From Kutzneria buriramensis (lineage in GTDB: Bacteria; Actinomycetota; Actinomycetes; Mycobacteriales; Pseudonocardiaceae): DNA of 64,000 nucleotides. Under the pieces are notes generated by a model. That model was not told the DNA's origin. It saw only the letters and a program-made list of their open reading frames with translations, and did no database searches. Positions 1 to 52,407 of the stretch are shown here, one piece after another; position 1 is the first letter of the stretch, and the number at the start of each line of letters is the position of its first letter. The stretch covers positions 682,001 to 746,000 of the forward strand of contig NZ_QUNO01000002.1 of assembly GCF_003387475.1 (NCBI RefSeq). Direction: 5' to 3'. The position numbers were made by a program, and so were the translations under genes.

Positions 1-170
1 GCCTGAAACCGTATTTCAGTGTGTCTGTGCTTGTGCCGCGCGTTCCGCGCGGGGCGAGGTCGCCTCTAAGCCGGCCTCTTCCCTTGTCTCGGATCGATCG
101 ATGAACAGACTCGATCGATCTGAGCCCGCGGTCCAGAGGCCGGCGCGACCTCGCGCGCGACTCGCGGGGG
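1..170 (+). repeat. Dispersed 46-bp repeat, copy 1, split by a 125-bp palindromic insert
   Basis: Bases 1-29 match the 5' part of the 46-bp repeat found intact at 11310 and 50987, and bases 155-170 (GCGCGACTCGCGGGGG) match its 3' end. In between lie about 125 extra bases (30-154) that fold on themselves: GAGGTCGC (56-63) pairs with GCGACCTC (145-152), GCCGGCCTCT (70-79) with AGAGGCCGGC (135-144), and GATCGATCGA (92-101) with TCGATCGATC (111-120). The 3' end touches the TGA stop of the AfsR-like gene on the minus strand. TGA at 4-6 could be the stop of a plus-strand gene outside the window, as it is in copy 2. Confidence 0.75.
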
Positions 171-3005
171 TCAGGGGTGGTCGGCGTCGAGGGCGGCCAG
201 GGCCTCCTCGACGGCGGGGATGTCCTGGGACTCCAGGGCCGTCAGGATGGGGAGTGCGCGGCGGTAGGAATCGCGGGCGTCCGCGGGGCGACCGGCCCGC
301 AGCTCCGCCAACGCCTTGCCCTGCAACGCATTGGCGATGCCGAAGCGGTCGTTGATGCCCTGCCGGGCCTGCACGGCCTGGTCGTAGTAGTCGATCGCGG
401 CGACGTAGTCCCCGGCGGCGAAATGGATCTCCCCCAACAGGTGCAGCCCGGAACCGACACCGTGCTGGTAGCCGACGTCGTGCCACGCCGCCAACGTGAG
501 CTGCCCGTACTCCAGCGCCTTCTCGTGGTCCCCCATGGCGTTGTACGCCGACGCGGTGCCCTGCAACGCCCACGCCCGGCCCCACGTGTTGCCGATCTCC
601 TCGTACGCCTCGGCGGCGGTCCGCAGCGCCGCCATCGCCTCCGGCAGCTTGCCCATGCTGACGTAGGTGAGCCCGAGCGAGTTGTACGTGATGCCGACGA
701 GCCACTTCTCCTCCGTCTGCGGGAAGAGCTCGATGGCCTGGTGGTAGTACGCCACCGCCTCGTCGTAGCGGCGCAGGTCGTTGGCCACGATGCCCAGCGA
801 CGAGTACGCGGACGCCTGCCCGTTCACGTCGCCGTCCAGAACGGCGTGCTCCAGGGAGATCCGGAGCATCTCGTTCCACAGCTCCCATCGCTTGTTGTAC
901 ACGTACCAGAAACTCGACATGGTCTGCGGCAGCCGCCACGCCACGGCGTGCTCGGAGATCTCCACCGCCCGCCGGATGGCCTCGACGAGATTGGTCTCCT
1001 CGGCCATGAACCACGCCCGCGCGTGCTCCGGATCGGGCTGCTCGGGGAAGGTCCAGTGCGCCGGCGGGTCGATGATGTTGTGCACGGGCTTGAACGCCAG
1101 CATCTGTCGGTCGGCCTTGTTGGCCGCGTGCATGTACCACCGCACGCCCCGTCGCGCGGCGGCATCCCGCTCGGCGGGAGTCTCGTCGCTGGTGGCCCGC
1201 TCCAGCGCGTACACCCGCAGCAGGTCGTGGAACTGGTACCGGCCGTCGGTGCGCAGCTCCAGCAGGTGCGCCCGCACGAGTTCGTCGAGCTGCGCCCGGG
1301 TGTCCTCCTCGGTCGCGTCGGCGAGCGCGCCGGCGGCGTGCCGGCTGACGTCGGGCCCGGCGTGCAGGCCGAGCAGCCGGAACAGGCGCTTGGCGGCCGG
1401 GCTCAGGGCGTCGTACGACCACGAGAACACCGCCCGCACGCTGGAGGCGGAGTCGTCGCCGGTGTCGAGGGCGTCCAGCCGGAAGTGGGCGTCCCTCAGC
1501 TCGTCCACGAACTGCGCCAGCGGCAGGTTCGGGCTGCACCACGCCCGCGCGCCGACGATGCTCAGCGCCAGCGGCAGCCCGGCGCACAGCCCCAGCAGCT
1601 CGTCGAACGCCTCCCGCTCCTCCTCGATCCGCTCCGGGCTCAGGTAGCTGGCCAGCAGCGCGGACGAGTCGATCTCGTCGAACAGGCCGAGCGTGAGCTG
1701 CCGACCGTCGCCGGTGGCGACGAGGCCGTCCAGGCGGTTGCGGCTGGTCACCAGCACCACGCAGCTCTGGTTGGCCGGCAGCAGCGGCGTGACCTGGTCG
1801 GTGGACATGGCGTTGTCCAGCACCATCAGCATCCGCCGGCCGGCGACCACGTTGCGGAGCATGACGCTGCGCTCGGCGGTGGTCTGCGGAATCTTCTCCG
1901 ACGGCACGCGGAACGCCGACAACAGCGTGTAAAGCGCGTCGTGCGGCGGCAGGGGTTTGTCGGCGACGTCGAATCCGCGCAGATTCAAATAGAGCTGGCC
2001 GTCGGGAAACAGGTCCCGGACCAAATGCGACCAGTGCACGGCCAGCGAGGTCTTGCCGATTCCGGCGGTTCCCTCGATGGTGGTGATCACCACCGTGCCG
2101 CCGCCACGCAGCGCGCCGGCGGCGGGCAGCAGCGCGTCGAGCCGCCGCAGCTCGTCGCCGCGGCCGGTGAACCGCCGGGTGTCGTGCGGCAGCTGGGACG
2201 GCACCACCCGCGGCAGCGCCGGATCCTCGGCCGGCTCGGCGTTGACCAGCGCCTCGTACACGCCGCGCAGCGCCGGCCCGGGCTGCACGCCGAGCCGGTC
2301 GTCGAGCAGCCGCGCGCCGGTCTGGTACACGGACTTCGCCTCGCCCAGCCGGCCCTGCTGGTGCAGGGCCCGGATCAGCAGCGCCCGGCTCGACTCGCGC
2401 AGCGGGTGGTCGTCCAGCACGTTCTTGAGCTCGGTGACGACCTCGGCCGGCCGGCGCAGCACCAGCAGCAGCTCGGCGCGCTCCTCCACGACGTCCAGCC
2501 GCAGCTCGGCCAGCCGCTGCCGCTCCACGTCCGCGAACGGCCCGCCGAGGCCGCCCAGCGGCGTGCCGGACCACAGCGCCAGCGCCTCGTCCAGCTCGGC
2601 CAGTCCCGCCTCGTGGTCGCCCGCGACGACCAGCCGCCGCGCGGCCTGCCGGTGCCGGCCGAAGCGCTCCGCGTCCACGCCCTCGGGCCCGACCCGCAGG
2701 CTGTAGCCGGAACCGGCGCTGACCAGCACCTGGAACGTCTTGCGGGCGGGCTCGAGCGCTCGGCGCAGGCCGGCGACGTAGGTGTGCACGCTGCCGACCG
2801 CGCTGGCCGGCGGCTCGGCGCCCCAGATGGCGTCGATCAGCTCGGCCCGGGAGATCACCTGGTTGGGGTTGGTGGCCAGCACCGCGAGCAGCGCCTGCTG
2901 CCGGGGCGGGCCGACCGCCACCTCGTGGTCGTCCAGCCACGCGCGGACGGGCCCGAGCAGGCCGATGCGGAGCCGGCCGAGGGCGGTCTCCTCGATGGTG
3001 GTCAA
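171..3005 (-). CDS. AfsR/SARP-family STAND transcriptional regulator
   Basis: The 944-residue protein has the AfsR layout. An OmpR-type winged helix (about residues 10-100, with RAELIDAIWG and VHTYVAGLRRAL) is followed by a bacterial transcriptional activation (BTAD) domain to about 250. An NB-ARC ATPase has its P-loop near residue 315 (GTAGIGKTSLA) and an LMVLDNA Walker B. TPR helices run from about 650 to the end. Proteins of this family bind direct repeats near -35 and activate secondary metabolism or development genes. No biosynthetic cluster is visible nearby, so its targets are unknown. The ATG start is supported by the conserved N-terminal LLGPVRAW motif. It is divergent from the secreted protein gene at 3335, and the spacer carries repeated TGAAC motifs that could be its own sites (inference). 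Confidence 0.9.
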   Translation of the reverse strand: MTTIEETALGRLRIGLLGPVRAWLDDHEVAVGPPRQQALLAVLATNPNQVISRAELIDAIWGAEPPASAVGSVHTYVAGLRRALEPARKTFQVLVSAGSGYSLRVGPEGVDAERFGRHRQAARRLVVAGDHEAGLAELDEALALWSGTPLGGLGGPFADVERQRLAELRLDVVEERAELLLVLRRPAEVVTELKNVLDDHPLRESSRALLIRALHQQGRLGEAKSVYQTGARLLDDRLGVQPGPALRGVYEALVNAEPAEDPALPRVVPSQLPHDTRRFTGRGDELRRLDALLPAAGALRGGGTVVITTIEGTAGIGKTSLAVHWSHLVRDLFPDGQLYLNLRGFDVADKPLPPHDALYTLLSAFRVPSEKIPQTTAERSVMLRNVVAGRRMLMVLDNAMSTDQVTPLLPANQSCVVLVTSRNRLDGLVATGDGRQLTLGLFDEIDSSALLASYLSPERIEEEREAFDELLGLCAGLPLALSIVGARAWCSPNLPLAQFVDELRDAHFRLDALDTGDDSASSVRAVFSWSYDALSPAAKRLFRLLGLHAGPDVSRHAAGALADATEEDTRAQLDELVRAHLLELRTDGRYQFHDLLRVYALERATSDETPAERDAAARRGVRWYMHAANKADRQMLAFKPVHNIIDPPAHWTFPEQPDPEHARAWFMAEETNLVEAIRRAVEISEHAVAWRLPQTMSSFWYVYNKRWELWNEMLRISLEHAVLDGDVNGQASAYSSLGIVANDLRRYDEAVAYYHQAIELFPQTEEKWLVGITYNSLGLTYVSMGKLPEAMAALRTAAEAYEEIGNTWGRAWALQGTASAYNAMGDHEKALEYGQLTLAAWHDVGYQHGVGSGLHLLGEIHFAAGDYVAAIDYYDQAVQARQGINDRFGIANALQGKALAELRAGRPADARDSYRRALPILTALESQDIPAVEEALAALDADHP

Positions 3006-10337: not shown

Positions 10338-11315
10338 GTGATCCAGGTCCGGCTGTCGGCGACGGGGCTCGCCGCCGCGAGATTCGCGGTCTCTCCCCTG
10401 TACGAGACGATGGGCCTGCTGATGGCGCTGCGCGCCCGCCGGGGCGGTTTCGACGCCGAGCGCCGGCGTCCGCGCGTCGGCCGGGCGATCGACGGCGGCG
10501 GGCTGGACCTGCTCGCGTCGATCACCCTCGTGCACCACGCGAGCCGCCACTACGTGCCGGACTTCCTCACCCCGGATCCGGTCGCGCCCGGCGGCAGCGT
10601 CGAGGCCGAGCTGCACGCGGTCGCCACCACCGACACCTCGCGGGTGCGGGCCGAGCTGGACATTCTCACCGCCGGCCGGCGGCTCCGCGGCGACAGCGGA
10701 ATCGTCGGGCGGGAGCTGCCGCGGCTGGTGTCCGACGCCGTCCAGACCGGTGAGCGGGACTTCGCCGAGCGCGTCGCCGGCGAGCTCGACGTCGTCTGGC
10801 GGACCGTGCTCGCGCCGGAGTGGCCGCGCATGCGGGCCCGCCTGGAGCAGGACATCGCACTGCGCGGGCATTCCCTGGCGCGTGAGGGCCTCGCGGGCAC
10901 GGTCGGTTCGCTCGCCCCGTCACTCGACCTGACCGACGGCGTCCTGACGGCCGCGAGTCGCTACGAGGTGGACGTCACCGCGGACAGCGTCGTGTTCGTA
11001 CCCACCGCGTTCCACCGGCCGACCGTCGTCGTCGACCCCTGCCCGGTGCCGGTGCGCCGGTCGCCGGTGGTGCTCTACCCCGCCGTGCCGGCGACCCCGA
11101 GCCGGGGCGAGGATCTGGCCGGGGCGGTCGGCCGCACCCGGGCTCGGTTGCTCGACGAACTCGCCACGCCGCGGTCCACCGGCGAGCTCGCCGAGCGGTT
11201 GGGACTCAGCGCGAGCACGGTGTCGTACCACCTACAGGGCCTGCTGCGCGCCGGACTCGTCACCCGCGTCCGGCGCTCCCGAACCGTGTACTACCACCGT
11301 GAGCAATCTGCCTGA
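10338..11315 (+). CDS. ArsR-like winged-helix regulator with large N-terminal domain
   Basis: The 325-residue protein has about 240 residues of unknown fold at its N-terminus (starts IQVRLSATGLAAARFAVSPL; DUF5937-like as I remember that family) and a C-terminal ArsR-type winged helix (LDELATPRSTGELAERLGLS, ASTVSYHLQGLLRAGLV). Such proteins are annotated as ArsR-family regulators but lack the usual metal-binding CxC. The GTG start has a GGGGGAAG ribosome site upstream. Its own TGA stop (11313-11315) lies inside the 5' end of a 46-bp dispersed repeat that fills the gap to the convergent proline dehydrogenase gene. Confidence 0.85.
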   Translation: MIQVRLSATGLAAARFAVSPLYETMGLLMALRARRGGFDAERRRPRVGRAIDGGGLDLLASITLVHHASRHYVPDFLTPDPVAPGGSVEAELHAVATTDTSRVRAELDILTAGRRLRGDSGIVGRELPRLVSDAVQTGERDFAERVAGELDVVWRTVLAPEWPRMRARLEQDIALRGHSLAREGLAGTVGSLAPSLDLTDGVLTAASRYEVDVTADSVVFVPTAFHRPTVVVDPCPVPVRRSPVVLYPAVPATPSRGEDLAGAVGRTRARLLDELATPRSTGELAERLGLSASTVSYHLQGLLRAGLVTRVRRSRTVYYHREQSA

Positions 11316-11355
11316 AACCTACATTCGGTGTGTCTGAGAGCGCGACTCGCGGGGG
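11310..11355 (+). repeat. Dispersed 46-bp repeat, copy 2
   Basis: An intact copy running from GCCTGAAACC to GCGACTCGCGGGGG. Its 5' end contains the TGA stop of the plus-strand ArsR-like gene, and its 3' end stops 4 bases short of the stop codon of the minus-strand proline dehydrogenase gene. The element therefore makes up almost the whole intergenic space between two convergent genes. It contains the palindrome CGCGACTCGCG. Confidence 0.85.
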
Positions 11356-11359
11356 TTCT

Positions 11360-12283
11360 TCAGGAACGGGTCGCCAGCGAGCGGAGGAAGAAGGCGACGT
11401 TGGCGGGGCGCTCGGCGAGGCGGCGCATGAAGTAGCCGTACCACTGGTCGCCGTAGGGGACGTAGACCCGCAGCGTCTTGCCCTCGGCGGCGATCGCGCG
11501 CTGGGCGTCGGGGCGGACGCCGTAGAGCATCTGGTGCTCGTAGGTGTCGGTGCGGCGGCCGGCGGCGAGGTCGGCGGCGATGGCGACCAGACGCGGGTCG
11601 TGCGAGGCGACCATCGGGTAGCCGGCGCCGTCCATCAGGATCCGCAGGCACCGCACGTACGACCGGTCGACCTCCGACTTGTCCTGGTACGCAACGGATT
11701 CCGGCTCCTTGTACGCGCCCTTGCACAGCCGCACCCGCGACCCGGCGCCGGACAGGTCCCGGCAGTCCTGCTCGGTCCGCCGCAGGTACGCCTGGAGCAC
11801 CGCGCCGGTGGACGGGAAGTCGACCCGCAGGTCGGAGAGGATGCCGAGGGTGGAGTCCGTGGTGGTGTGGTCCTCCATGTCCAGCGTCACGGTGGTGCCG
11901 ACGGCCGCGGCCGCCTCGCAGATCAGCCGCGCGTTGTCCAGGGCGATCTTCTCGCCGTCCTTCGGCAGCGACTGGCCGACCGCGGACAGCTTCACCGAGA
12001 CCTCGGCGCTGCCGGCCAGATCCGCCGCGCCGAGCGCGTCGAGCAGGCCCTCGTAGGCGTGCACGGTGGCGGCGGCCTGCGCGGCGTCGGTGGTGTCCTC
12101 GCCGAGGTGGTCGAGCGTGACCTTGCGCCCGTCGGCGACGAGCGTCGAGGTCACCTCGACCGCCTCACGCAGCGAGGAACCGGCCACGAACCTGCGCACC
12201 ACCGGCTTGGCCAGCGGGGTGCGCTCGACGAGCTGCCGGGCCTGCGGCGAGCGGGCGGCGGCCAGCAAGGCGGTGCGCAGCAT
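11360..12283 (-). CDS. Proline dehydrogenase
   Basis: The 307-residue FAD-dependent monofunctional proline dehydrogenase (PutB/PruB type) oxidises L-proline to pyrroline-5-carboxylate and passes electrons to the quinone pool. Family motifs are RLCKGAYKEP (FAD/substrate region), VASHDPRLV, YEHQMLYGVR and the C-terminal YVPYGDQWYGYFMRRLAERP helix that binds proline. Length is normal. It is transcribed after the P5C dehydrogenase gene with a 25-bp gap, so the two enzymes are made together. The divergent PucR-type gene at 14061 is the likely regulator. Confidence 0.95.
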   Translation of the reverse strand: MLRTALLAAARSPQARQLVERTPLAKPVVRRFVAGSSLREAVEVTSTLVADGRKVTLDHLGEDTTDAAQAAATVHAYEGLLDALGAADLAGSAEVSVKLSAVGQSLPKDGEKIALDNARLICEAAAAVGTTVTLDMEDHTTTDSTLGILSDLRVDFPSTGAVLQAYLRRTEQDCRDLSGAGSRVRLCKGAYKEPESVAYQDKSEVDRSYVRCLRILMDGAGYPMVASHDPRLVAIAADLAAGRRTDTYEHQMLYGVRPDAQRAIAAEGKTLRVYVPYGDQWYGYFMRRLAERPANVAFFLRSLATRS

Positions 12284-27199: not shown

Positions 27200-27712
27200 A
27201 TGTTCATCCGACGCGAGACCCCTGATGACATCGCGGCCGTCCACGCCGTCACCGCCGCCGCGTTTCCCGACACCGGCGCCCGGATCGAGGCGCCATTGGT
27301 GGACGAGTTGCGTGTCGACCCGGGCTGGCTGCCGACGTTGTCATTGGTCGCCACGGACAATGGCGGCGCGATTGTCGGCCACGTGGTGGCCACCCGCGCC
27401 CGGGTCGGCGAATTCGCCGCGCTGGGATTGGGTCCGTTGAGCGTTCATCCATCACACCAGCGCCGCGGCGTCGGCAGCGCCCTCGTGCACGCCGTGATCG
27501 GCGCCGCCGACGCGTTGGACGAACCGTTGGTGGCACTACTGGGTAATCCCGCCTACTACCACCGGTTCGGCTTCCGCCTCAGCGACGAGTTCGGCATCCG
27601 GCCGCCGGTCGCCGAGTGGCAGCCACACTTCCAGGTGCGGCCCCTGACCGCCTACTCCCCCACGATCCGAGGCACCTTCACCTACGCCACCCCCTTCGAC
27701 CGCACCTTCTGA
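27200..27712 (+). CDS. GNAT-family N-acetyltransferase
   Basis: The 170-residue GNAT enzyme (YhbS-like) has IRRETPDDIAAVHAVTAAAF at the N-terminus and the acetyl-CoA loop LSVHPSHQRRGVGSALVHAV. The C-terminal YYHRFGFRLSDEFGI segment is typical of this subgroup. Substrate unknown. The start is the ATG at 27200; a frame extension upstream has no family similarity. Its TGA stop directly abuts copy 5 of the 46-bp repeat. Confidence 0.85.
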   Translation: MFIRRETPDDIAAVHAVTAAAFPDTGARIEAPLVDELRVDPGWLPTLSLVATDNGGAIVGHVVATRARVGEFAALGLGPLSVHPSHQRRGVGSALVHAVIGAADALDEPLVALLGNPAYYHRFGFRLSDEFGIRPPVAEWQPHFQVRPLTAYSPTIRGTFTYATPFDRTF

Positions 27713-27758
27713 CCCCCGCGAGTCGCGCTCTCAGGCACACCGAATGTGCGTTTGGGGC
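27713..27758 (-). repeat. Dispersed 46-bp repeat, copy 5
   Basis: On the minus strand it reads as the family sequence, with a more divergent start (GCCCCAAACG) and a conserved ACATTCGGTGTG core and GCGCGACTCGCGGGGG end. It begins at the base after the GNAT stop codon. Together with copy 4 (27803-27848, opposite orientation) it makes a large inverted repeat between two convergent genes. Confidence 0.85.
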
Positions 27759-27802
27759 AGACCACTGACGTGGAGTTCGGGGCGGTGAAGTGGTCGCCGT
27801 GT

Positions 27803-27848
27803 GCCGGAAACCGGATTTCGGTGTGTCCCAGAGCGCGACTCGCGGGGG
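27803..27848 (+). repeat. Dispersed 46-bp repeat, copy 4
   Basis: It runs from GCCGGAAACC to GCGACTCGCGGGGG, again exactly 46 bases. It ends at the base next to the stop codon of the minus-strand TetR gene (27849). The 44 bases between copies 4 and 5 hold no gene. Confidence 0.85.
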
Positions 27849-28439
27849 TCAGGTCAGGGCGGCGCGGGTGAGGGTGGTGGCGGTGTGCACGATGCTGGCG
27901 ATAGCGGCTTCGGCGGGCATGCCGTGCAGGTCGGTGAGGGAGAACAGGGCCTCGGCGGCGACGACCACGGCGAGGTCGTTCTTGAGCTGGCGCAGCGCCT
28001 CGGGGTCGCGGCCGCCGAGGGTGCCGGCGAGCGGGGCGAGGGCGTAGTCGATGAGGCCGAAGCGCATGCCGGGGCGGGCCTGGGCCTGCTCGGGCCGGGT
28101 GATGGTGGCGGCGATCATGGCCCGGACCACGCCCTGGCGGGCGAGGACGTGTCGGAGCAGGAACTCGGTGGCGGCGGCCACGCGGACCACCGGGTCGTCG
28201 GAGTGGGCGACGGGGGCCAGCGCCTCCTCGGGGCTGGGCAGCTGCCCGGCGATGGCCTCGCGCAGCAGGCTGGCCAGGTCCGGGAAGTAGCGGTACGCCG
28301 TCGCCTCCGACACCAGCGCGGCCCGGGCGACCTCGGGCATGCTCACCTCGCGGCCGGTGCGGCTGAGCTCCGCGGCGGCCTGCACGATCGCGGTGCGGGT
28401 CCGCAGCTTCTGGTTGACCCGGCCGGTCTCCGACGTCAT
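27849..28439 (-). CDS. TetR-family transcriptional regulator
   Basis: The 196-residue TetR protein has its N-terminal HTH in VSMPEVARAALVSEATAYRYFPDL and a variable ligand-binding C-terminal part. It is divergent from the cupin gene, and a TGAGAGTCAAnTCTnA-type palindrome occurs both in that divergent region and upstream of the hydrolase gene at 29755. The three genes therefore look like one regulon with this protein as repressor (inference). Its stop codon abuts copy 4 of the 46-bp repeat. Confidence 0.85.
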   Translation of the reverse strand: MTSETGRVNQKLRTRTAIVQAAAELSRTGREVSMPEVARAALVSEATAYRYFPDLASLLREAIAGQLPSPEEALAPVAHSDDPVVRVAAATEFLLRHVLARQGVVRAMIAATITRPEQAQARPGMRFGLIDYALAPLAGTLGGRDPEALRQLKNDLAVVVAAEALFSLTDLHGMPAEAAIASIVHTATTLTRAALT

Positions 28440-50900: not shown

Positions 50901-50923
50901 TCACTTCGAGCTGGGCCCCTCAT

Positions 50924-50976
50924 GCAGGGAAGGACGCCTTACCCGCGTTGAACGAGGGTAAGGCGTCCTTCCCTGC
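50924..50976 (+). terminator. Terminator with 21-bp perfect stem and GTTGAA loop
   Basis: GCAGGGAAGGACGCCTTACC+C (50924-50944) and its exact complement (50956-50976) enclose the loop GCGTTGAACGA. It follows the propeller gene by 23 bases. The GCAGGG stem start and GTTGAA loop recur in the hairpin at 34681, so both belong to one dispersed terminator family. Confidence 0.9.
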
Positions 50977-50986
50977 GTCAGAACCT

Positions 50987-51032
50987 GCCTGAAACCTACA
51001 TTCGGTGTGTCTGTGAGCGCGACTCGCGGGGG
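50987..51032 (+). repeat. Dispersed 46-bp repeat, copy 3
   Basis: An intact copy, 44 of 46 positions as in copy 2 by eye. It ends 1 base before the stop codon of the minus-strand PI-PLC gene (51034). On its 5' side a terminator hairpin separates it from the propeller gene. Confidence 0.85.
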
Positions 51033-51033
51033 T

Positions 51034-52407
51034 TCACTGGACGGCGGCGGATACCAGGGACTGGTACCAGGGGGTCCAGGGGGTGTTGGTGGCGGGGTAG
51101 TTGGCCAAGGGGGTGGTGGCGTCGCCGGCGGAGTCGAAGTCCCAGCCGCGGACGAGGTGCCCGGACTGGCGGCCGGCCACGATGAACGACGAGTCGGTGG
51201 CGGGAGCGGCGTAGAACAGCGCCCCCTGTTGGAGAACGGCGTTGTCGCCGTCCTGGAACTCGTCGAAAGCGGTTTGCTGGTAACGGATCCGACCGCCGGT
51301 CACACCGGAATCCGTGTACCGCAGGGTCGATGCCTCGGTCGGGCCGTCAGCACCCGTGTAGACGGTGACACCCCGAGCCGACGACTTCGGCAGCAGGGCG
51401 CTGGATGTCTTGGCGTTGCCGCTCCACGAAACCGTTGCCCCGGAAAGAACCCCGTTCCACGTCCAGTTCTGGCTGCTGCTCTGGCTCTTGTGCACCTCCA
51501 GCAGGGAACCGGAACCCGTGAACGCCACGGTCGGCGTCACGCCGTTGTCGTACTGATGGCTGTCCTGCCAGGTGATCTCGCCGTCGGCGCCGAGCTGGCC
51601 TACGTGGTACCAGAGCGTGGTGGCCGTCTGCGACTGGTGCACCTCCACCAGCTGCCCCGCGTCGTTCAGCGCGACGGCCGGCGTGACACCGCTGTCGTAC
51701 TTGCCGTGCCGCAGCCAGGTCACGGTGCCGTCGGCGCCCAGAGTCCCGGTCCAGTACCACAAAGCGCCGCCCCCGGAGTCGTGCACCTCGACGATCCGGC
51801 CACGGCCGTTGACGGCGACGGCCGGGTGGTAGCCGACGTCCCGCTTGTACTCGGTACGGGTGCCGCTGTCACCGGACAGCAGCGTCAGAACGCGGCCGCG
51901 CAGCGAGTCGACCGACGGCGAGCCGACGTAGTCGGCGGGGTGCAGCAGGCTCGACCCGAACGCCGACTGGAGCTCGGCGTTCAGCGCGGTCAGGTTGCCG
52001 GTGGCGAAGTTCGGGTTGTCGGTGAGGTCGTCCTTCAGGTCGAGCATCACCACCAGCGGCGCGTGCGTCGGGTGCGCGTTCGACCAGCCGGCGATCATGT
52101 TCAGCCAGTCGCGCAGCAGGTTGGACGCCGGATTGCCGTTGTGGTCGACCAGATCGCCGGGGCTGCTGTGGCCGATCGAGTAGTCGTGGTTGGCGGCGTA
52201 GCCGTTGTCGTGCACGTCGAGTTCGACGAACCGCACGCCGTGGTCGAGCTGGTACGGGATCGAGTTCTTGGCGCCGTCCACGTTGCCGGAGTAGCTGTTG
52301 TGCGTCGCCAGGAACAGCGAGTCCACGAACGGCTGGCCGGTCTGCGGGCCGGCGACCAGGGCGGAGGCGGCGGTCAGGGCGGTCAGGTACGCGCCGAGGC
52401 GGTTCAT
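51034..52407 (-). CDS. Secreted PI-PLC-like phosphodiesterase with tandem C-terminal repeats
   Basis: The 457-residue protein has a signal peptide (about 1-20) and a PI-PLC X-type TIM barrel: ATHNSYSG (His36), RFVELDVHDNG (acid and His66), ANHDYSIGH (second His region), VVMLDLKDD. From about 225 to 345 come three repeats of about 40 residues (YDSGVTPAVALNDAGQLVEV, hQSQTATTLWYHVGQLG), probably a beta-propeller-type binding segment, and then a closing domain. It would cleave phosphatidylinositol or another glycerophosphodiester outside the cell. Confidence 0.8.
   Translation of the reverse strand: MNRLGAYLTALTAASALVAGPQTGQPFVDSLFLATHNSYSGNVDGAKNSIPYQLDHGVRFVELDVHDNGYAANHDYSIGHSSPGDLVDHNGNPASNLLRDWLNMIAGWSNAHPTHAPLVVMLDLKDDLTDNPNFATGNLTALNAELQSAFGSSLLHPADYVGSPSVDSLRGRVLTLLSGDSGTRTEYKRDVGYHPAVAVNGRGRIVEVHDSGGGALWYWTGTLGADGTVTWLRHGKYDSGVTPAVALNDAGQLVEVHQSQTATTLWYHVGQLGADGEITWQDSHQYDNGVTPTVAFTGSGSLLEVHKSQSSSQNWTWNGVLSGATVSWSGNAKTSSALLPKSSARGVTVYTGADGPTEASTLRYTDSGVTGGRIRYQQTAFDEFQDGDNAVLQQGALFYAAPATDSSFIVAGRQSGHLVRGWDFDSAGDATTPLANYPATNTPWTPWYQSLVSAAVQ

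Follow-up and report, generated by a model that had tools for sequence, protein, structure and literature searches.

The 46-bp sequence that recurs beside stop codons in the 64,000-nucleotide stretch of Kutzneria buriramensis DNA analyzed here (the window) is a single arm of a palindromic repeat that is interspersed, mosaic, and specific to the genus, and the unusual part of this element is its precise contact with stop codons. The reading we favor, with a probability of roughly 55%, is that of a REP/BIME-like mosaic repeat that has settled at the 3′ ends of genes and been homogenized within species. Throughout, G000 denotes this genome (11.97 Mb) and G001 to G006 its genus mates, of which G003 is small (4.7 Mb).

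Copies of the element in the window

The first-pass annotation described five copies in constant orientation at 0, 4, 0, 0, and 1 nt from neighboring stop codons, and all of these features were found again by direct reading together with our own gene calls (Table 1). Exact matches of the 14-base head core in the window numbered five and corresponded to the five copies; the degenerate core, searched with three mismatches, was not enriched there (38 matches vs 84 expected). The tail pattern, allowing up to three mismatches, gave three window matches compared to none in 100 shuffles. Pfam supported the names given to the neighboring genes (BTAD/NB-ARC/TPR for the AfsR-like gene, arsR-type HTH, proline dehydrogenase, GNAT, TetR, and PI-PLC).

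Table 1. Positions of the element copies and of an adjoining repeat in the window
Feature	Position	Strand	Structure	Neighboring stop codons	Basis
Copy 1, composite	1-170	-	tail 1-27, nested repeat 28-152, head 153-170	head abuts TGA (171-173) of AfsR-like gene 171-3005 (gene call)	sequence read
Copy 2, half copy (single arm)	11310-11355	-	head 11338-11355	head 4 nt from stop (11360-11362) of proline dehydrogenase gene; tail contains TGA (11313-11315) of ArsR-like gene 10338-11315	sequence read and gene call
Copies 3 and 4, one full copy with inverted arms	27713-27848	.	27713 minus, 27803 plus	GNAT stop (27710-27712) and TetR stop (27849-27851)	
Copy 5, half copy	50987-51032	-		head 1 nt from PI-PLC gene stop (51034-51036)	
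AGGGAAGGACGCCTTACCC palindromic repeat (AGGGAAGGACGCC type), unlike the element	50920-50980		other side of copy 5		

In copy 1, the tail and head are parted by 125 bp that hold a second palindromic repeat, and this nested arrangement recurs at C5:80350 with the same internal point. The nested repeat itself reads GAGGTCGCGCCGGCCTCTGG...AGAGGCCGG...GCGACCTC; longer or related forms were seen at L300:1698-1851 and L302:12016-12139, and there are many copies in relatives. Copy 2 was said to bridge two convergent genes, and this is borne out because the ArsR-like gene ends inside its tail. The full copy formed by copies 3 and 4 occupies the entire gap between the two flanking stops and has a predicted hairpin of -87 kcal/mol (z -6.75).

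Anatomy of the element

Read from the gene, the head of the aligned copies is A(A)CCCCCGCGAGTCGCGCTC and is conserved, whereas the body is more variable (e.g., TCAGACACACCGAATGTAGGTTTCAGGCAGA). A full copy comprises two inverted arms of ∼50 bp with outer ends A(A)CCCCCGCGAGTCnCGCTC, such that inverted heads lie at both termini as terminal inverted repeats, and a half copy is a single arm. An inverted partner was present for 48 of 89 noncoding heads, with a spacing of 76 bp in nine instances and 97 to 99 bp in 24. Tandem arms were found at L005 and L017 and at the G004 loci L209 and L214, composite copies also occur, and in relatives the same head is joined to other bodies. At one fixed body position, 29 of 36 full elements of G000 (e.g., L302:4711-4831) carry C in one arm and G in the other.

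When the L302 4711-4831 copy was used as a BLAST query, the matches in relatives mostly ended within a few bases of common points; the copies are thus discrete units with repeatable ends. A 121-bp subfamily occupies 17 places in three relatives (81-94% identity), three of which are flush with a stop (L284, L286, and L294). Discrete ends and such a subfamily are what dispersal leaves, which suggests, from these traces rather than from observed movement, that the element has spread.

Copy number and distribution

A search of this genome and its relatives, as proposed in the first-pass annotation, located the 16-base head GAGCGCGACTCGCGGG with up to one mismatch at 253 places in G000 (125 + 128), compared to three (2 + 1) for a reversed-pattern control. 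Five of the six genus mates yielded 52 to 124 heads (G001, 124; G002, 78; G004, 57; G005, 52; G006, 122) and G003 yielded 0, while the remaining 73 genomes of the same search contained 0 to 6, similar to their controls. A stricter pattern was found 195 times in G000 and 0 or 1 time in 396 further genomes from the order. Counts of ACCCCCGCGAGTC in G000 to G006 were 209, 124, 75, 0, 13, 106, and 69, and none of the other 113 genomes exceeded 11. The density in G000 is approximately one head per 47 kb. Scanning of a named-genome collection gave matches only at two places in Pseudonocardia sp. MH-G8 and in one MAG. The MH-G8 loci (L060 and L062) contain tandem ∼20-bp units, ACCCCCGCGAGTCGGGCGCTC-like or ACCCCCGCGAGTC-like, that might be distantly related to the head.

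Position relative to stop codons

We placed 97 distinct exact 16-mer heads against called genes, using gene boundaries from our own caller rather than a published one. The sample was drawn from the window, C5:1-400000, 26 loci, and 40 stretches from the first 100 genome places listed; it omits heads less than 300 bases from the ends of fetched loci (window excepted) and those at C12 275253/275351 and 379400. Eighty-nine heads lay outside called genes and eight inside. A gene 3′ end was on the head side of 76 noncoding heads, and the other 13 had a gene 5′ end there instead. Among the 76, the stop was 0 nt away in 23, 1 nt in 16, 2 to 6 nt in 15, 8 to 19 nt in eight, and farther in 14. Expressed cumulatively over the 89 noncoding heads, 39 (44%) were within 1 nt of a stop and 62 within 20 nt. 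Only 0.5% of intergenic positions lie no more than 1 nt from a 3′ end, and the peak is sharp, with 39 heads at 0 to 1 nt vs two to four at each distance from 2 to 6 nt. The claim that the element always starts at a stop codon was therefore too strong, as 50 of the 89 heads lie beyond 1 nt; its core idea stands, since random placement relative to stops, the result named in advance as refuting it, was not seen genome-wide. In the relatives, 12 of 33 heads from pattern-fetched loci were within 1 nt of a stop. Two other local palindromes were not flush: the AGGGAAGGACGCC type was within 1 nt in 0 of 14 cases (nearest, 2 nt) and the CCACATGCGC type in 0 of 6 (nearest, 9 nt). The AGGGAAGGACGCCTTACCC repeat, which belongs to the AGGGAAGGACGCC type, occurs at 14 places in 464 kb of G000, mostly 2 to 57 nt behind stops.

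Stop codons at 0 to 1 nt comprised 23 TGA, 16 TAA, and no TAG (n = 39), compared to a background of 328 TGA, 19 TAA, and 58 TAG (n = 405 genes). In abutting copies the element ends in an A or AA that serves as the last base or bases of the stop codon, and the excess of TAA and the absence of TAG are expected if this end finishes the codon. The first-pass suggestion that the element inserts at or supplies the 3′ end of reading frames holds to this extent, and also for the tail of copy 2 with its stop codon. We rejected the idea that the element truncates genes and thereby creates their ends: among the comparable cases listed, orthologues without the element terminate at the same stop codon or within a few residues of it, so the element is not, as a rule, the maker of the gene end.

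Two simple explanations for the contact were rejected as well. A stop triplet preceded only 2 of the 50 heads located away from stops (one among 23 near heads and one among 27 far heads), where CAA/GAA/AAA-like triplets were found instead, which argues against a simple TGA/TAA target. A pre-existing run of C behind stops was present at 3 of 240 element-free G000 stops vs 2.1 expected. The corresponding value in relatives was 13 of 450 vs 3.9 expected, a weak excess that perhaps reflects element remnants.

Occupied regions (n = 69) were convergent in 45 cases, tandem in 21, and divergent in three, compared to 68, 267, and 68 of 403 regions overall.

Comparison between species

For the window, C5:20-105 kb, and two additional 20-kb regions, the syntenic stretches of up to five relatives were compared with G000. 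At one convergent gene pair, G000 carries a 124-bp copy, G001 a 47-bp half copy, and G002 a spacer of 7 bp. At a second pair, the element type between the same two stops is different in each of G000, G005, G006, and G001. In relatives, the same stop-to-stop gap is also occupied by other palindromes unrelated to the element. One tandem-gene stop (CTGGTC...TGA) has an element behind it in five species, at a distance of 0 to roughly 16 nt.

Among 584 gene-by-species comparisons, in which a convergent pair is counted once for each of its genes and the related species are not independent, an element was present in both genomes in 25, in G000 only in 38, in the relative only in eight, and in neither in 513. 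The 25 shared addresses represent 20 element pairs derived from seven distinct G000 elements, mostly of block a (15/25), and it is on these that the support from shared addresses rests. By block, the shared fraction of G000-occupied comparisons was 15/18 (a), 3/5 (b), 7/28 (c), and, by the strict motif, 0/12 (window). The window value is low partly because the strict motif misses the diverged heads that lie behind the proline dehydrogenase stop of G001 and of G002.

A base within the head differed from that of G000 at 24 of the 25 shared addresses. In the sampled sequence this base was G in 122 of 135 G000 heads, C in 19 of 22 for G005, 10 of 10 for G006, and 4 of 4 for G004, and A in 14 of 20 for G001. 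G002 was mixed (nine C, six A, and two G), with mostly the A version in its whole-genome list. The species-specific head base is thus a tendency within species and not a fixed rule. With species pooled, the head bases at the two ends covaried in 29 of 39 elements vs 17.6 after shuffling. G005 gave 12 of 12 vs 7.5, a value reached by 9 of 2000 shuffles; covariation was not significant in G001 (8/10 vs 5.9) and there was none in G000. Since G005 alone supports covariation within a species, the pooled signal is mostly a species effect.

The dependence of the head base on species, along with the inverted pairs at gene ends, recalls the Neisseriaceae DNA uptake sequences, which contain UGA and for which one-base species variants and inverted pairs at gene ends are likewise reported in the relevant portions of PMC3630211. 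We consider it very unlikely, nevertheless, that the head is a dispersed species dialect word for a DNA-binding or DNA-uptake protein. By manual reading, 22 of the 23 places at which the word GCGAGTCGCGC occurs in 464 kb (all but C5:153237) carry an element, nested, or 121-bp type body, so the word is not dispersed independently of its flanks. Unlike an uptake sequence, it goes with a long body, and its density is far lower.

Searches for a mobilizing enzyme

No REP-type Y1 transposase (RAYT, PF01797) was detected in G000 or in five other genus genomes, and G002 contained a 58-amino acid fragment. Target-site duplications were not seen at the few junctions inspected. Between the widely spaced head pairs L006/L007 and L275-L277, the few such pairs inspected, there was no recognizable transposase; the notion of an autonomous transposon between such heads was therefore dropped. 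L006/L007 (G000:C1:774079-775142) enclose one gene, and the same gene lies at L277; in both G000 and G002 it is flanked by inverted heads separated by ∼1.05 kb. We take its product for a putative AbiEi/DUF559-like protein, and according to our own gene call the reading frame of the G002 version is apparently shortened.

A site-specific mobile element that recognizes stops or tight convergent junctions, and that returns to identical stops in every species, much as has been reported for mycobacterial MIRU at stop/start overlaps, would fit the 0 to 1 nt peak and the way that the element end completes the stop. Convergent junctions that overlap or are at most 9 nt apart (26 of 68) would offer it a natural landing place, and the same stops do hold different element types in different species. 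This explanation strikes us as unlikely: the 48 of 50 heads elsewhere that lack a preceding stop triplet demand some other target, the families searched revealed no transposase, and target duplication was not seen.

The copies also share features with the attC sites behind integron cassette genes, being imperfect palindromes that lie directly behind stops and carry AAC and GTT at their opposite ends. Their identity as attC-like recombination sites is nonetheless extremely improbable, as the copies are dispersed rather than arrayed and none of the seven genus genomes has an integron integrase over the TIGR02249 cut-off (only sub-threshold matches, as in 14 of 14 controls).

Folding of full and half copies

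All five full copies that were folded gave hairpins with z values of -6.75 to -14.23 relative to shuffles. None of three half copies had a stable fold (z +0.59, +0.88, and +1.45). The paired arms of G000 full copies agreed at 22.1 of 31 body positions compared to 22.4 for shuffled arms, which argues against selection for the hairpin; together with the unfolded halves, arms no more alike than random ones speak against a tuned terminator. Rfam returned no match at the gathering score for the window and L066.

The main alternative for the stop contact is selection for function at stops, with the element acting as a 3′-end signal, either a bidirectional terminator or an mRNA 3′-end stabilizer, that is kept beside stops whatever its route of spread. 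The folding of the full copies, the predominance of convergent genes in the occupied regions, the unrelated palindromes that fill the same stop-to-stop space in relatives, and the conservation of some addresses across species are consistent with such a role. Its likelihood is lowered by the half copies that do not fold, by arms that resemble their partner in the same element no more than they do the arms of other elements, and by the two other local palindromes, presumed to be ordinary terminators, that do not touch stops. Moreover, an Escherichia coli terminator placed a few bp behind a gene is described as almost completely repressed in the relevant part of PMC4824070. On balance we regard a 3′-end signal as rather unlikely. 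The role in termination, mRNA processing, or ribosome release that had been proposed for the element loses ground on the same observations, namely halves without a stable fold and full-copy arms without kept complementarity.

Relationship to known repeats

Mycobacterial MIRU, reportedly described by Supply et al. in 1997, are said to be elements of similar size located at stop codons, in stop/start overlaps within operons. By that description, the present element differs in being mostly between convergent genes rather than in operon stop/start overlaps.

REP, BIME, and REPIN sequences of Enterobacteria and Pseudomonas resemble the element in being interspersed, intergenic, and palindromic, with inverted pairs at fixed spacings and mosaic and tandem forms (PMC3733652 and PMC3116915, in part). 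REP and BIME also lie for the most part behind genes and in convergent junctions, according to excerpts of PMC3733652. The element departs from REP/REPIN in the lack of a RAYT gene in G000, in the absence (by inspection) of a GTAG or CGTC tag at the palindrome end at the foot of the head, where the consensus begins AACCCCCGCGAGTC, and in its sharp stop peak; as neither the RAYT gene nor the tag was found when looked for, we do not file it as a REP/REPIN. Of the 4,072 predicted E. coli REPs, only 446 are within 15 nt of a stop, unlike the element, and REPs at this distance stall ribosomes (PMC12306157, from the portion of that study devoted to them). In E. coli, inverted repeats commonly occur close to stops, and Streptomyces uses bidirectional transcript ends, as stated in parts of PMC6060812 and PMC8269248, respectively.

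MITEs such as YPAL of Yersinia are also short noncoding palindromes in high copy beside coding sequences, with filled and empty sites between relatives (PMC2229807, in part), and EFAR of Enterococcus, named in PMC3733652, is another. In contrast to MITEs, target duplication is not established for the element, no matching autonomous insertion sequence was found, and its ends complete a stop codon. Our literature search, with thin coverage of subscription papers, returned no description of this repeat family, and a term search of the text of the Saccharothrix espanaensis genome paper (PMC3469384) returned no mention of repeats or palindromes.

Discussion

The favored reading, a REP/BIME-like repeat that settled at gene 3′ ends and was homogenized within species, would involve the following steps. 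The element would be copied from place to place within the genome, by some enzyme or by gene conversion, and copies would survive where a gene or promoter stays unbroken. A copy landing in a stop codon would be harmless because its end restores the stop, and settled copies would be rewritten toward the species' own version. Random landing with purifying selection alone would not by itself yield the 0 to 1 nt peak. In our view the likeliest cause of the stop contact is that a copy with A(A)CCCC at its end would restore any stop that it enters, in junctions with no room for anything else, and an added bias of the copying process is also supposed. Full copies between convergent genes probably serve, secondarily, as putative two-way transcription barriers or mRNA 3′-end stabilizers, and half copies probably are without RNA function.

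One bolder proposal, which we hold only tentatively and judge rather improbable, is a stop-addressed system in which some activity places or rewrites elements precisely at stops, has kept the same gene ends occupied since the species split, and imposes the species spelling on hundreds of copies, such that a 3′-end mark and its reader would co-evolve.

REP-like repeats are mostly known from Proteobacteria with RAYT transposases, and here an actinobacterial high-copy family is found without one. It shows single-base accuracy relative to stops and a species-specific head, and it explains a substantial fraction of the spacers between convergent genes in these genomes. If its placement results from targeting, the family would be a mobile element capable of reading translation stops. 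If placement results from selection, hundreds of natural variants would test how a stop-flush structure affects termination, ribosome release, and convergent transcription.
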